Shown: piece after piece, positions 17,004 to 22,588 of the stretch
Numbering within the stretch: the first letter of the stretch is position 1
How the letters are laid out: each line of letters opens with the position of its first letter
Source: an uncultured Anaerovibrio sp.
GTDB taxonomy: Bacteria > Bacillota > Negativicutes > Selenomonadales > Selenomonadaceae
Assembly: GCA_902786545.1 (NCBI GenBank)
Contig: CADACU010000007.1
Coordinates: 1-52,211, forward strand
Reading direction: 5' to 3'
DNA: 52,211 bases
Program-made: the position numbers and the translations under genes
The notes under the pieces: model-generated
What the model was told of the DNA's origin: nothing
The model's input: only the letters and a program-made list of their open reading frames with translations
Databases searched by the model: none

Positions 17004-17026
17004 ATATTAAAAAAGGGGGGATGGAT

Positions 17027-17755
17027 ATGAATATTGCCGTGGTTGATGATAATGATATGGACCGGAACAATGTAATAAACTATTGTCAACAGTATATTTC
17101 TGATCACTATCCCCAGGATAAAAATTTTATCAATATAAAAACCTTTGCCAGTGGTGAGGAATTGGTGGAGTCTTATAAATCCGGAAAATTTGATTTATTG
17201 GTGTTGGATATATATATGACGGGAATTTCCGGCCTGGAAACGGCAAAGAAGATCCGTGATGTGGATTCAGATGTCAGCATCATTTTTTTGACCAGTAGTG
17301 ATGAGCACCTGTTGGAAGGCTACAGGGTGTTTGCTACGGGATATTTTATCAAGCCACTGAAGGACCACGAAGAGGAATTTGCTGCCACCTTCAATCATAT
17401 TTTTCCTAAATTGTTGAAAAACAGAGGAGGAATAACCATCAGGGTAAAAGGGTCTCTGGTGGATGTTTCCTATAGCGATGTAATGTATGTGGATGTCAGT
17501 GATGCCCATAATATCGATATTCATTTTAACAACAAGGTGTTATCGTCTCCCATGTCCTATGGGGAATTGGCAGAGATGCTGTTAAAGGAAGAACGGTTTT
17601 TGGAGTGTCATCATCGCATCATTGTCAATATGGATTATATTGAGGTAATGGAGCAGGAGGAATTCATATTAAAGGATAACAGCCATATTCCGATCAGTCG
17701 CCGTAAGCGCCAGGATGTAAAGGTGGCTTATATGAATCATATAATCAGCAAATAG
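17027..17755 (+). CDS. LytTR-family response regulator
   Basis: A 242-residue two-component regulator of the AgrA/LytR class. Receiver domain (1-125): acidic pair VVDDND, phospho-acceptor Asp in LLVLDIYMTGISG (about residue 57), LTSSDEH and the Lys of FIKPLK. LytTR DNA-binding domain (about 135-235): ECHHRIIVNMDYIEVMEQEEFILKDNSHIPISRRKR. ATG 17027 is preferred over 17021 because GGGGGG abuts the latter. It converges on the two kinase genes, and a hairpin overlaps both stop codons. LytTR proteins bind paired direct repeats about two turns apart; such a pair lies at 20035-20069, suggesting the target. Confidence 0.93.
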   Translation: MNIAVVDDNDMDRNNVINYCQQYISDHYPQDKNFINIKTFASGEELVESYKSGKFDLLVLDIYMTGISGLETAKKIRDVDSDVSIIFLTSSDEHLLEGYRVFATGYFIKPLKDHEEEFAATFNHIFPKLLKNRGGITIRVKGSLVDVSYSDVMYVDVSDAHNIDIHFNNKVLSSPMSYGELAEMLLKEERFLECHHRIIVNMDYIEVMEQEEFILKDNSHIPISRRKRQDVKVAYMNHIISK

Positions 17756-17785
17756 AAAGGGTGAGGTCAATTGGCCTCACCCTTT
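17756..17785. terminator. Bidirectional terminator touching both convergent stop codons
   Basis: An 11-bp perfect stem AAAGGGTGAGG / CCTCACCCTTT with an 8-base loop. It begins right after the regulator's TAG and overlaps the TAA of the kinase on the other strand. It shows that the short kinase gene has a proper end here rather than a lost 3' half. Confidence 0.92.
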
Positions 17786-18662
17786 AGCTTTTTTCCAACA
17801 GTTTCTTTTGGGCTTCAATATGCTTTTTTATGCTCTCATAGTCGCCTTTTTCCAGCAGGGCATATATCAGACGATAACTATGACGCAGGTCATGGCGCAG
17901 TACAGAAATGGCTTTTTCATTTTCCTGTACCATTTTGGTATGCTTCGTGAGATTTTGCAGCTGTCTGGTAAGCCGTTCTTTGGTCTGGGTCAGCTGACGG
18001 TACTGAATTGCCTCCCGGGAATTATAATGAACCAGGGAATAGACGATGAAGAAAAACAGGGGAATGGACAGTCTGGTCAATCTGTCACTTAATTCCGGCA
18101 GAAAGGTGACATTGGTGATGGAGATAATGCATCCAATATAGAATGACACTGGTAACAGGGCAATATACCATTGAAGTTTGGTATCAGAAATGAATTGTTT
18201 GTCAGGCAGCAGACTGGTAAAGAGCTTTTCCCCCCATGGGTAAATCAACAAAAAGAGGCCAATCCACAGGGTAAGCTGCAATGGAAGTAATCTGGCTGTC
18301 ATGGTGGAATATATAAGGGTGAGAATAATGCTGGCCACTGAATGAAGCATAAACGCATAAAGGGCCTGAATGCCTATAACAAAGAAGTGCTGGGCCAGAT
18401 GGCGGGGGATAAGAATAACAGAGAGAATAAAATATGGTGTCATACCAAAGAAAAACAGCAGCTTGAAGGTGCGCATGGATATTCCATAGACACTTGTAAC
18501 ATAAATATTTATCATCAAGCCGGCTATGCTCCATAAAAGCAGTGCTTTCCATAGTCTGGCGGTGAGCTTTCGGTTTAAAATCCGACTGAAGGGAAGATAG
18601 CGGAAATAGGCACCGGCGAGATGTATCAGCGTTGTTAAAATGGCATAGGCGAATATCAACAT
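17784..18662 (-). CDS. Sensor kinase half with phospho-acceptor His but no ATPase domain
   Basis: 292 residues: about six N-terminal membrane segments (1-200), a coiled linker, and a dimerisation/His-phosphorylation helix with LRHDLRHSYRLIYALLEKG (His about residue 256) of the HPK10 (AgrC-like) type. It then stops 33 residues later, with no N, G1 or G2 boxes. A terminator overlaps its stop, so it is not simply frameshifted. It starts 7 bp inside the end of the upstream kinase gene with GGAGGGATG before its ATG, so the two are coupled. The upstream partner has an intact ATPase domain but no His. The likely role is to be phosphorylated in trans by that partner and pass phosphate to the LytTR regulator (inference). 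Confidence 0.85.
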   Translation of the reverse strand: MLIFAYAILTTLIHLAGAYFRYLPFSRILNRKLTARLWKALLLWSIAGLMINIYVTSVYGISMRTFKLLFFFGMTPYFILSVILIPRHLAQHFFVIGIQALYAFMLHSVASIILTLIYSTMTARLLPLQLTLWIGLFLLIYPWGEKLFTSLLPDKQFISDTKLQWYIALLPVSFYIGCIISITNVTFLPELSDRLTRLSIPLFFFIVYSLVHYNSREAIQYRQLTQTKERLTRQLQNLTKHTKMVQENEKAISVLRHDLRHSYRLIYALLEKGDYESIKKHIEAQKKLLEKS

Positions 18663-19996
18663 GGTTTATCATCCCTCCAATACATGAATAGGCGCACCCG
18701 ACCTTCATTCTGGGTAAAGGTGGCATAACCCTTGTATTTTTCCAAAAACATTTTCAGGGAAACCATACCAATACCGTGGCCTTTGCGGGTGGCCCGGGGT
18801 AGGCCCTCTTTATCCAAATCTATAGGTGTGCCGCAATGGTTGCTGATGGAGAGGACGCATTGATGACCGTTATGTTGTATAGTCAAAGCTATTTCCGCAT
18901 TGTTATCGTTTGATTTTGGGGAACGGAGGGTTGCCTGCAGGGCATTTTCCAGCAAATTGGATAACAAAATGCCTAAATCATTTTCATCCGTGGCCAGATT
19001 GGCCGGCAGGTTAACCTTGGTGGTAAAGGTAATTCCAAGCCGTTGGGCTCGGGAATAATAGATGGAAATAGCAGTGTTGATAATGGGATAGTCGGAATAG
19101 GACATAACTGTGGCGGCTGGTAGCTTAAGCTCCTGTTGCCGTAAGTATTCCCGTATTTCATCCGCTTTTTGGGCATCAATCAGCTCCAGTATGTGATCGT
19201 AGCTGGTAAGAAAGCCTTGGCGGAACTTTTTTATGAGAGATTTATTTTTTTGAAGCAAAAGGCGGTGCTCCACCAAAGATACCATTTCATTGGATAAATG
19301 CTGGTTGTTTTTCTGCAGCAATTTTTTTTCATTGTAATACCTGGTAGCAATTTGAACATAGTGAAAACAGCACAGAAAAACCACCAGGAGATAAAATCTG
19401 GAAAGCAATAACTCCCAGGAATGCCAAAGAATTTTATCAGTTGACAACAGGGTTTGGGCAACGGAAATGGACAGGGGCAGGCTGGCGATATAGAGGCCGA
19501 TATTCTTCTCCTGAAAAAAATCCCGTGACGGAAGCAAGCGGGCGAACATTTGCCGTTCCCAAGGAAGCAGCAGAATAAACAACAGCAGATTGGATAGGGT
19601 ATGGATTATCAGTGCCTGATCATAGGGTGTTTCATAAAACCATAAGGTAAGTACCATATCACTGGTGCTGTGCAATAAAAAGCTCCATAGCGCTGACATT
19701 CCCAACACGAAAATATGCAGGGAAATATGGCCGGGAATAAGCCGTAAAAAGATTAGAAAATATGGAATCCAGCCTAGCATAAGCAGATATTTATAAGCCA
19801 TAATGGTAAAGCCACTGTAGGCTAATACACCAAAATACAGTGGAAGGGAAATAAGCCCCCAGCTGAGAACCCATTGCAGAAGACGACGAATTTCCTGCTG
19901 AGACATATCAGGTTTAAAGGCCAAATACCACAGGTAAGTATGGCAAAGCTGTACTATGGTAATCAAAAAAACCAATGGAATAATCAATATATTCAT
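18656..19996 (-). CDS. Sensor kinase half with ATPase domain but phospho-acceptor His replaced
   Basis: 446 residues: six or so N-terminal membrane segments (1-215), a coiled linker, a dimerisation helix and a GHKL ATPase domain (about 325-440) with the N-box LLSNLLENALQATL and the G2 box RKGHGIGMVSLKMFLEKYKG. Aligned with its neighbour, the region that reads LRHDLRHSY there reads FRQGFLTSY here: His becomes Gln and the adjacent catalytic Asp becomes Gly. It therefore should bind ATP but cannot autophosphorylate at the usual site. RBS TGAGGT precedes the ATG. It is the first gene of a coupled pair and is divergent from the lipoprotein gene. Confidence 0.87.
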   Translation of the reverse strand: MNILIIPLVFLITIVQLCHTYLWYLAFKPDMSQQEIRRLLQWVLSWGLISLPLYFGVLAYSGFTIMAYKYLLMLGWIPYFLIFLRLIPGHISLHIFVLGMSALWSFLLHSTSDMVLTLWFYETPYDQALIIHTLSNLLLFILLLPWERQMFARLLPSRDFFQEKNIGLYIASLPLSISVAQTLLSTDKILWHSWELLLSRFYLLVVFLCCFHYVQIATRYYNEKKLLQKNNQHLSNEMVSLVEHRLLLQKNKSLIKKFRQGFLTSYDHILELIDAQKADEIREYLRQQELKLPAATVMSYSDYPIINTAISIYYSRAQRLGITFTTKVNLPANLATDENDLGILLSNLLENALQATLRSPKSNDNNAEIALTIQHNGHQCVLSISNHCGTPIDLDKEGLPRATRKGHGIGMVSLKMFLEKYKGYATFTQNEGRVRLFMYWRDDKPC

Positions 19997-20034: not shown

Positions 20035-20069
20035 CGACCACTTTTAACAAAAAACGACCACTTTTAACA
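20035..20069 (+). promoter_or_regulatory. Paired direct repeats, candidate LytTR binding site
   Basis: Two exact copies of CGACCACTTTTAACA at 20035-20049 and 20055-20069, 20 bp apart start to start. This is about two helical turns, the layout bound by LytTR regulators. The pair ends 6 bp before the predicted -35 of the lipoprotein gene, an activator position. The next-door LytTR regulator is the likely ligand (inference). Confidence 0.6.
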
Positions 20070-20191: not shown

Positions 20192-20845
20192 ATGTTGAAA
20201 AAATTATTATTGTCTGTGGTTGCATTGCTTGCTGTATTTGCAATCGCCGGATGCGGTGCCGACAAGCCAAAGGACAGCGCTGACAAAGCCATCTTGGGTT
20301 ATTCTGAGATAATGGCTTACGGTGTATCTGATAGCATGGCGGCTACAGGTATGACCAAGAAACAGGAGGAGGAAATTCAGGAAGCGGTTATTGGTGATTT
20401 GCTGAAGGCATTTGCCCAGTTCCCACTGAATGATGCCAATGTTCAGACTGTAACTACTTCATACATCACCAAGATGAAGGCAGCTATGCAGATTAAGACT
20501 GAGATTACGAAAGATGATGCTGAGCATCCAGTAGTTAAAGTTACTGCCAATGTAATTGATCAGGCGGGTGCTGCTAACTTGGCCAATACGAATGCGGATA
20601 TTCAGGCTCTTGGTGTAGTATTAGGCGCCCTGCAGGCTAACGGCTATACTGTGGAGCAGTTCAAGCAGGACCCGGATTTCCAGAAGGCTACTATTGAATG
20701 TATTGAAAACTATATCAATGAGTTCCCGCTGAAGATGGGTCAGACTTATGAGTGCAAGTGCGAAATCGTTAAGGGCGACGATGGCAAAACTTATTGGGCT
20801 CCGGTTGATGTGGACGGCCTGAAGAAGTTTGTTAATGGTAATTGA
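20192..20845 (+). CDS. Putative lipoprotein of unknown function
   Basis: A 217-residue secreted lipoprotein: basic start MLKKLLL, a hydrophobic stretch and the lipobox AIAGC at about residue 21, then a soluble alpha-rich domain with ADKAILGYSEIMAYGVSDSMAATGM and a C-terminal TYECKCEIVKGDDGKTYWAPVD. It loosely resembles small lipoproteins of the DUF5105 kind, but I cannot name a function. GAGGGGG precedes the ATG. It lies divergent from the split kinase and behind the paired direct repeats, so it is the best candidate target of the LytTR regulator. Confidence 0.8.
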   Translation: MLKKLLLSVVALLAVFAIAGCGADKPKDSADKAILGYSEIMAYGVSDSMAATGMTKKQEEEIQEAVIGDLLKAFAQFPLNDANVQTVTTSYITKMKAAMQIKTEITKDDAEHPVVKVTANVIDQAGAANLANTNADIQALGVVLGALQANGYTVEQFKQDPDFQKATIECIENYINEFPLKMGQTYECKCEIVKGDDGKTYWAPVDVDGLKKFVNGN

Positions 20846-20890: not shown

Positions 20891-21088
20891 ATGAAAAAGA
20901 AAATTGGTATGGTATTGGCTGCTATGGTATTTGCTTTAGGGGCATAGATGGCTAGTGCAGCATCTTTGGTAGGTACTGCTCCAGAGCTTAACCTGTTGGA
21001 TGAGGAAGAGATTATTATCGTAGATGAGCCTGTAGAGTCCGGTGACCTTATCGTGACCGAAGATGGCGATGTTTACGAAGTAGAATAA
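20891..21088 (+). pseudogene. Small secreted acidic peptide gene with in-frame amber in the signal peptide
   Basis: With AAAGGAGG at 20874-20881, an ATG at 20891 opens MKKKIGMVLAAMVFALGA, then TAG at 20945-20947, then in the same frame MASAASLVGTAPELNLL and a very acidic tail to a TAA at 21086. Together these make a standard signal peptide (cleavage after ASA) and a mature peptide of about 43 residues. One base change (for example CAG to TAG) explains the break. Reinitiation at the ATG right after the TAG would give the peptide without most of its signal. The gene follows the lipoprotein by 45 bp and precedes a terminator. Function unknown; suppression or a sequencing error would restore it. 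Confidence 0.65.
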
Positions 21089-21221: not shown

Positions 21222-21254
21222 TAAGAAGGTTTTAATCAAAATTTAATATTTGGG

Positions 21255-21450
21255 AACAGGTGTCGTATGCGTTTGCATTTAGACTTAATAGAGAAGCTGG
21301 TAAAGTCCAGCACGGTCCCGCCACTGTAAGAGGAGTTTAGCTGCAGGTTTGGCCACTGGAGTATTCTGGGAAGGCGCAGCGAAGCGATGAATCAAGTCAG
21401 GAGAACTGCCTGTTTTTCAATCACCGTTTTTACCTGCGAGCGACAGGAAG
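21255..21450 (+). ncRNA. Cobalamin (AdoCbl/B12) riboswitch
   Basis: Recognised by the conserved core GGTCCCGCCACTGTAAG, the upstream GAAGCTGGTAAAGTCCAGC, and the 3' portion with AAGTCAGGAGAACTGCCTG. It lies in the leader of a btuFDC-like operon and is followed by two terminator-like hairpins, so high cobalamin should switch expression off. The ends are approximate. Confidence 0.93.
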
Positions 21451-21604: not shown

Positions 21605-22588
21605 ATGAAGTATTTTATTAAATTATTTGCCGTTGTGACAGTACTTATTGTGCTTTGTGCTTCTGGTTGCAGCAAACAGCCGGCCGCATCCTCTGATGAA
21701 TATGAGGTCACTGATTGCCAGGGAACGGTGGTGCATTTTAAGGAAAAGCCCAAACGAATTGTCACGGCCACCAAGGGGACAGACACCATCGTACTGGGAT
21801 TAGTAAAACCGGATAAGATGGTTGCCTGCGACCGGAATTTGGATGATCCAAATAGCTCCAATATGCTGGAGCTGGTCAAGGAAATACCAAACCGCGTGCA
21901 CCTGCCAAAATTGGAGGAGTTGCTGGTTTTGCAGCCTGATTTGGTTATAGCGGTTGATTGGGGCAATTTGGACTATGTCCAATCCTTGCGGGACATGGGC
22001 ATAAATGTGGTGGTAGTCCGAGGAGCAAAAAATTTATCTGATGTAAAAGAGAATATTACCCTTATTTCTGCCGCTCTGGGTGAACCGGAAAAGGGCCAGC
22101 AGCTTATTTCCCAAATGGAAGCGCGCTTGAATGCGCTCAAGGAAAAAGTTGACCGGTTAGTTCCCCGGGACCAGCGCCAGCGGGCCGTTTTAATATCCCG
22201 GGTGGCGTATTATGGAGGTAAAGGCTGTATATATGATGATGCCTGCCAGTGGGCCGGTGTTATCAATGGTCTGGCGGAGGCCGGATTGCATCGGGGGACC
22301 AATCTTACCAAAGAAATGATTGTAAAAATTGATCCGGATGTTTTGTTTTTGCCTAGCTATTCGATGCGCGGCCTGGCTGATAAACAGTCTTTTCGGGATA
22401 ATTACATAAAGGATCCGTCATTGCAGCATGTCAAGGCCATTAAGAATGGCAAGGTGCGGGAGCCGCGGGATGCATATATTTATTCTGCGTCACAGGATTT
22501 TTGCTTTGGAGCACAAGAAATTGCCTATTGTGCCTATGGAGATGAATTTAAGCAGGATGATCAACAACATTTGTCGGTGGCGGAGTGA
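21605..22588 (+). CDS. btuF: ABC transporter substrate-binding lipoprotein, cobalamin type
   Basis: A 327-residue lipoprotein of the BtuF/FepB fold. Lipobox LCASGC at about residue 22; then VTDCQGTVVHFKEKPKRIVTA, IVLGLVKPDKMVACD, LEELLVLQPDLVIAVDWGN, and ILISR...GLAEAGLHRGTNLTKEMIVKIDPDVLFLP, all standard for periplasmic-binding family 2. Placement behind a B12 riboswitch points to cobalamin or a cobinamide precursor. A GAGGAG site precedes the ATG. It is followed by the ATPase after 3 bp. Confidence 0.88.
   Translation: MKYFIKLFAVVTVLIVLCASGCSKQPAASSDEYEVTDCQGTVVHFKEKPKRIVTATKGTDTIVLGLVKPDKMVACDRNLDDPNSSNMLELVKEIPNRVHLPKLEELLVLQPDLVIAVDWGNLDYVQSLRDMGINVVVVRGAKNLSDVKENITLISAALGEPEKGQQLISQMEARLNALKEKVDRLVPRDQRQRAVLISRVAYYGGKGCIYDDACQWAGVINGLAEAGLHRGTNLTKEMIVKIDPDVLFLPSYSMRGLADKQSFRDNYIKDPSLQHVKAIKNGKVREPRDAYIYSASQDFCFGAQEIAYCAYGDEFKQDDQQHLSVAE

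Follow-up and report, generated by a model that had tools for sequence, protein, structure and literature searches.

Results

Organization of the kinase locus

The window, the whole stretch of 52,211 nucleotides that was analysed, comes from an uncultured Anaerovibrio sp., a rumen bacterium whose relatives also carry the kinase pair described here. Two sensor genes lie on its minus strand, an upstream gene (18656-19996) encoding a 446-aa protein and a downstream gene (17784-18662) encoding a 292-aa protein, hereafter the long and the short protein. Open reading frames, alignments and structure models, together with Pfam for the former, identify the long protein as the predicted ATPase subunit of an AgrC-type membrane kinase that lacks the phospho-acceptor His, and the short protein as the predicted His subunit, a membrane protein that stops after the DHp hairpin. 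The two genes overlap by 7 nt (18656-18662, minus strand), with the same overlap at a second split locus, which suggests translational coupling. A LytTR response regulator gene (17021-17755, plus strand; PF00072, 5.4e-16; PF04397, 2.4e-12) is convergent with the pair, as an earlier sequence-only reading of this DNA had stated. Its product is the predicted phosphate receiver (D63), and the receiver Asp and Lys are kept in all seven aligned LytTR regulators. A terminator-like hairpin common to the convergent genes (17756-17785, scoring on both strands in terminator prediction) covers 2 nt of the stop codon of the short gene, which agrees with the overlap of terminator and stop described in that reading.

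On the other side of the pair, a LytTR-type direct repeat, AAAGTGGTC-N11-AAAGTGGTC (20036-20064, minus strand), recognized through pattern searches and locus alignments as a predicted operator, sits between the kinase operon and a divergent lipoprotein gene. The latter, an open reading frame of 217 aa (20192-20845, plus strand), adjoins the repeat and is a candidate target. It is followed by the gene of a small secreted acidic protein (20891-21088, plus strand), which is broken here by an in-frame TAG and has intact copies in relatives. A cobalamin riboswitch (RF00174, 102 bits; 21241-21427, plus strand) precedes a run of genes beginning at 21605.

An ATPase without His beside a His without ATPase

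The sequence-only reading had proposed that the upstream gene retains a full ATPase domain while its phospho-acceptor His and catalytic Asp are gone, and both points were borne out. The long protein matches HATPase_c_5 (PF14501, E 1.2e-10) over residues 339-434, encoded at 18695-18982 on the minus strand, with intact N and G boxes (NLLENA and GHGIGM); N347, E350, N351, N386, G406, H407, G408 and G410 are invariant in the 14 rows of the alignment of long proteins (alignment A1). Its DHp motif reads FRQGFLTSY, and the alignment columns place Q260 and G261 (codons at 19214-19219, minus strand) where His and Asp are expected. Moreover, in a profile alignment to structure, the FRHD of AgrC (6e52) aligns onto this stretch. 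The model of the long protein (mean pLDDT 81.5) consists of a membrane bundle, DHp helices at residues 194-274 and 278-294, which are modelled at moderate confidence (pLDDT about 58-76), and then an ATPase fold. Its closest PDB folds are structures of the S. aureus AgrC kinase module, 6e52 (E 2.5e-8) and 6e95 (E 3.9e-8), and the same module was the only match of the long-protein profile to PDB sequences at E 0.01. The long protein has the architecture of the AgrC-type (HPK10) kinases, namely a multi-helix membrane part, a DHp and HATPase_c_5, except for the phospho-acceptor His that these carry in the same protein; its position is taken by Q260, and the His sits in the partner.

The converse claim, that the downstream gene keeps RHDLRHS and ends before any ATPase box, holds as well. 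The short protein carries the motif RHDLRHSY, in which H257 (codon at 17892-17894, minus strand) is the predicted phospho-acceptor. It gave four Pfam matches at E up to 1, all below the cut-offs and none to an ATPase family, the best being to SPOB_a, a DHp model (E 0.0023). Its model (mean pLDDT 87.5) shows a membrane bundle and DHp helices at residues 191-271 and 275-291, with nothing beyond the second helix, and neither the model nor the profile found a significant match in the PDB. R256, H257, D258, R260 and H261 are invariant in 14 of 14 partner rows, and also in 26 of 26 rows of which four are intact kinases. Both structures were predicted as single chains. As seen in sequence or model, each protein has its own multi-helix membrane part and DHp hairpin, with the ATPase in the long protein only and the His-Asp in the short protein only.

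Conservation in Anaerovibrio and a second split locus

Both genes of the pair are present in eight of the 16 Anaerovibrio genomes, the genome of the window included; in the other eight, neither gene was matched at E 1e-5. The complementary loss is full in seven of the eight pair-bearing genomes and partial in G010, where the long gene has kept the His and lost the Asp (NHNF) and the partner is still 431 aa long, with a decayed ATPase domain. Over two locus types, the His is absent from 13 of 14 long proteins while the key ATPase residues are invariant in all 14; in the assembly of G008 the long gene is broken, and its longer piece alone was aligned. Between the two closest genomes, dN/dS (NG86) was about 0.09 for the long gene (0.088/0.952) and about 0.08 for the short gene (0.068/0.853), values that indicate purifying selection on both. 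The same gene ends recur in independent genomes, named isolates among them (L057-L059 and L088 for the window-type locus), which makes a frameshift or a false stop unlikely. The artefactual stop or frameshift that the sequence-only reading had considered as an objection did not appear, and assembly error was rejected on the same grounds.

A relative of the long protein, 40% identical to it, is encoded on another contig of the same genome in a second split locus (L004). There, a 442-aa gene reads KKQQENLLKTY at the His site, and its partner is a 101-aa gene whose product has the motif RHDLRHHYRLLYALL and, to judge from its sequence, one membrane helix. These genes overlap by 7 nt (L004:4587-4593) and face a LytTR regulator. 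In this genome, which is 91.7% complete, the two HATPase_c_5 proteins and the two LytTR proteins found all belong to the split loci, and a search for an intact paralogue of the kinase family gave none. Help from such a paralogue was rejected for the HATPase_c_5 family, the one covered by this count, within the 91.7% of the genome that is available. G005 has a window-type pair, a single HATPase_c_5 protein, which is the product of the long gene, and no second split locus; one pair therefore suffices by itself.

Co-occurring losses in the Selenomonadaceae

Whether His loss and ATPase loss go together in related bacteria was a question raised by the sequence-only reading, and in the Selenomonadaceae they do. 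A profile search found kinase relatives in 92 of 189 family genomes, and an order-level search covered the same 189 genomes. The sample comprised 94 stretches, 80 (L139-L218) hand-picked among the matches listed and 14 loci of the own genus; 11 places of group g21 and 11 weaker or fragmentary places were left out, L019 (the second half of L010) was excluded from the counts, and L214 contains no match. Catalytic residues were read for each ORF that matched. An ATPase was taken as intact when its N and G boxes read N, E/D, N, A/S/T, N, G, H/R, G, G. This gave 80 genes, outside which fell L146, L144, L170, L172, L157, L215, L182, L186 and contig-cut genes. His followed by Asp/Glu was missing from 41 of the 80, and the other 39 had the His. 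A neighbour with a His but without an intact ATPase stood beside 38 of the 41 His-less genes versus 2 of the 39 His-bearing ones (Fisher p 1.5e-16, a value that is overstated since related loci were treated as independent). His and ATPase were found on separate conserved genes, adjacent in 38 of 38 pairs, and both polarities retain one His and one ATPase. Where the ATPase gene comes first, the partner was short in 11 pairs, a mini protein in 12 and full-length but decayed in 3; where the His gene comes first, it was short in 10 and decayed in 2, partner types being assigned from frame lengths and, for L142, by hand. The His position of the long proteins is variously replaced by Q, E, S, N, D and others.

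The two His-bearing genes with such a neighbour are those of L141 and L209, and the three exceptions among the 41 are the His-free pair L149, the locus L197, which begins at a contig end, and L216, a single kinase reading RHN. At L141, the upstream gene combines RHDLKESY with an intact ATPase, beside a gene with RHDLRHSY and a decayed ATPase, an early-looking stage of the split. Complete mutual dependence is not fixed everywhere, judging from this upstream gene, which keeps RHD together with its ATPase, and from the His kept in the long gene of G010.

Some loci depart from the common plan. The tandem pairs L149 (G169:C25) and L182 (G079:C1) have the phospho-acceptor His in neither gene; G169 also has two ordinary split systems (L147 and L148), which might lend L149 a His. 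At L158, L174 and L175 (G120 and G122), the upstream gene is without His and most ATPase box residues and the downstream gene keeps HE and the ATPase boxes, apparently a dead twin beside a possibly live kinase.

A single intact kinase at this place in related genomes, which the sequence-only reading had regarded as evidence against a split, was not encountered; intact single kinases are present at other Selenomonadaceae loci. Among AgrC-like genes of other lineages, 11 loci were scanned, and His then Asp/Glu occurred in one and the same protein with NLLENA in all ten that gave a protein (nine from Clostridia and one from Steroidobacter).

Evolutionary history of the split

In the tree of the membrane part (124 rows), the upstream and downstream genes of the pairs form two supported groups (SH-aLRT 98 and 96). 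L197 and L175, which were counted as first genes, fall in the downstream group because their contigs start there; the L209 pair branches apart as a duplication of its own. Anaerovibrio has the ATPase half upstream. The opposite polarity, with the His half upstream, is found in a clade of 13 rows, drawn from 12 group-g10 genomes, and also in G185 and G118, and the Anaerovibrio polarity recurs in five other g10 genomes (G061, G065, G068, G082 and G103). Since g10 holds both polarities, the switch runs between lineages and not between tidy genera. A single clade was rejected for the ATPase-only genes as a whole, both on the membrane part (p 4.8e-6) and on the ATPase part alone (p 1.1e-7), as well as for the His-only partners (p 4.5e-43), in tests whose groups were named after the residues had been seen and for which L216 was removed from the ATPase-only rows. 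The ATPase-part tree argues against a single origin followed by exchange of C-terminal tails (p 1.1e-7). All trees came from quick searches with midpoint rooting; support is weak for part of the deep branches, with 34 of the 120 inner branches open in the membrane-part tree, and minis and short fragments are absent from them. The common ancestors were probably intact, because a His or domain, once lost, is unlikely to be regained. The split has probably settled at least twice, in opposite directions, and the topology suggests a tandem duplication that was resolved in opposite polarities, with full-length intermediates.

A candidate operator and its neighbouring genes

The repeat pattern, which was derived from the site at 20036-20064 itself, matches once in the window against 0.02 matches expected, with no second copy. 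LytTR sites are described as two 9-11-nt repeats with an 11-13-nt spacer (PMC4847170), and activation of the own operon via such repeats is reported for LytTR systems (PMC6193735). The repeat found here follows this plan, and its role as an operator is predicted from sequence. With at most two mismatches, it occurs in 8 of 8 genus genomes with the pair and in 0 of 8 without it (Fisher p 1.6e-4); a backward control pattern gave five matches in total, three of them in the genome of the window, where the true pattern matches once. In G005, the sole match stands beside a secreted-protein gene, and the operon has a different repeat. The core AAAGTG with a period of 20-22, chosen after the first alignments had been inspected, stands upstream of 24 of the 37 split loci, 3 of the 16 other loci and none of the 34 single-kinase loci; backward-core controls gave 0. 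It was found ahead of pairs of both polarities and is absent from 13 of the 37 split loci.

A relative of the lipoprotein is encoded at six of seven operon-side repeats, the missing case being G010, where the stretch is short. The gene of the small secreted acidic protein is present in 9 of the 16 genus genomes, including all eight with the pair, and there one copy lies near the kinase operon; its product may act as a signal for the system or be one of its targets. In G002, G005 and G006, large secreted proteins whose long signal region is unusual (SPLGxD...KGLKGxMALALAxSLW) are encoded next to copies of the predicted operator (loci L221, L228, L229, L233, L236 and L241), and those of L221, L229 and L236 had no Pfam match above the cut-off.

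Discussion

From the distribution of His and ATPase over adjacent genes, we infer that the two proteins form one kinase. Taken as a whole, the data are best explained by an obligate heterodimeric AgrC-type kinase with phosphorylation in trans and a LytTR output, originating by duplication and complementary loss, an explanation that we hold to be probable. Pairing of the long with the short protein would involve the membrane helices and those of the DHp hairpins and yield a mixed four-helix bundle, where the ATPase of the long protein would phosphorylate, in trans, H257 on its partner. The latter would then hand the phosphate to D63 of the LytTR regulator, which might bind the repeat of 20-bp period and thereby control the kinase operon and/or the divergent lipoprotein gene, as well as further secreted-protein genes in some relatives. 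Such a system may have arisen when an intact kinase was duplicated in tandem and the copies underwent complementary loss of His and ATPase; elsewhere this loss would have run in the opposite polarity, and in one branch it would go together with a His half as small as some 100 aa. The pairs L149 and L182, with a His in neither gene, count against this explanation.

The short or mini protein might alternatively be a phosphotransferase fed by a different kinase, in a relay like that of Spo0B, with the long protein serving as a regulator or phosphatase only. The short protein has a DHp hairpin and lacks an ATPase, its best, sub-threshold Pfam match is SPOB_a, and its G010 counterpart has a decayed ATPase domain, as has Spo0B. 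Such a relay is nevertheless unlikely in view of the key ATPase residues of the long protein, which are invariant in 14 of 14 cases, of a genome that has no other HATPase_c_5 kinase, and of genes that stand side by side in 38 of 38 pairs. The free substitution at the His position of the long protein and the two pairs without His could also indicate that the long protein is a pseudokinase, which senses ATP or titrates the short protein in a pair that no longer signals by phosphate; given that R-H-D-x-R-H is invariant in the aligned partners and that the receiver Asp of the regulators is conserved, we consider this very improbable. Metagenome bins are the source of several loci, and stops occur in some genes (e.g. 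in G008 and G079), but with dN/dS about 0.1, conserved ends in named isolates and one His plus one ATPase kept in both polarities, it is hardly credible that the pair represents two degenerating kinase copies or an assembly error.

Beyond the proposed heterodimeric kinase of the window, it is likely that such kinases evolved repeatedly in one family, through tandem duplicates, complementary degeneration and opposite roles, from an intact kinase over intermediates to a 100-aa membrane-anchored phospho-acceptor, and that this allows two sensors to gate one phosphate. If true, a homodimeric enzyme can turn into an obligate heterodimer, its autophosphorylation being fixed as trans and two sensors being coupled to one output. 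With the split resolved in opposite ways by different lineages, the duplication-degeneration-complementation model would become directly testable, and the pair would be a ready-made two-part kinase for synthetic circuits.

Among known systems, AgrC of S. aureus (6e52/6e95) offers the solved kinase core closest to the long protein. AgrC is a membrane kinase working with a LytTR regulator, but it has His and ATPase in one protein; engineered AgrC heterodimers of complementary mutants exist in the literature. Spo0B of Bacillus subtilis, a DHp hairpin with a decayed ATPase domain, acts as a phosphotransferase, and the G010 partner looks alike. Spo0B is, however, soluble, and its phosphate comes from a response regulator and not from an ATPase twin.

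Kinases naturally divided between two proteins have been described as well. According to PMC7656254, Hik36/Hik43 (PilL-N/PilL-C) of Synechocystis is, like the kinase proposed for Anaerovibrio, one kinase spread over two genes, whose products interact in a two-hybrid assay; unlike it, this is a split CheA homologue with an HPt domain, and the genes are distant in the genome. Amin et al. noted, as a potential only, that HisKA and HATPase could be split in the same manner, and counted 1556 of 42417 HisKA proteins in SMART without a HATPase domain (PMC3591291). No AgrC-type split kinase was found, by title or start of abstract, among the matches listed from open-access literature, and the Pfam matches at E up to 1 for our pair included none of the CheA domains (P1 or P3-P4-P5). 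The split kinase that has been characterized is CheA3/CheA4 of Rhodobacter sphaeroides, of which neither protein autophosphorylates alone and the mixture does (PMC3591291). Phospho-acceptor and ATPase lie on two proteins in both systems. CheA3/CheA4 belongs to the CheA class, with a separate P1 domain and a cytoplasmic chemotaxis cluster, whereas the Anaerovibrio pair would be a DHp-type membrane kinase, each half of which has retained its membrane part and DHp hairpin; in the mini-type His half, the membrane part is a single helix. The natural split kinases described in the sources consulted are of the CheA type.
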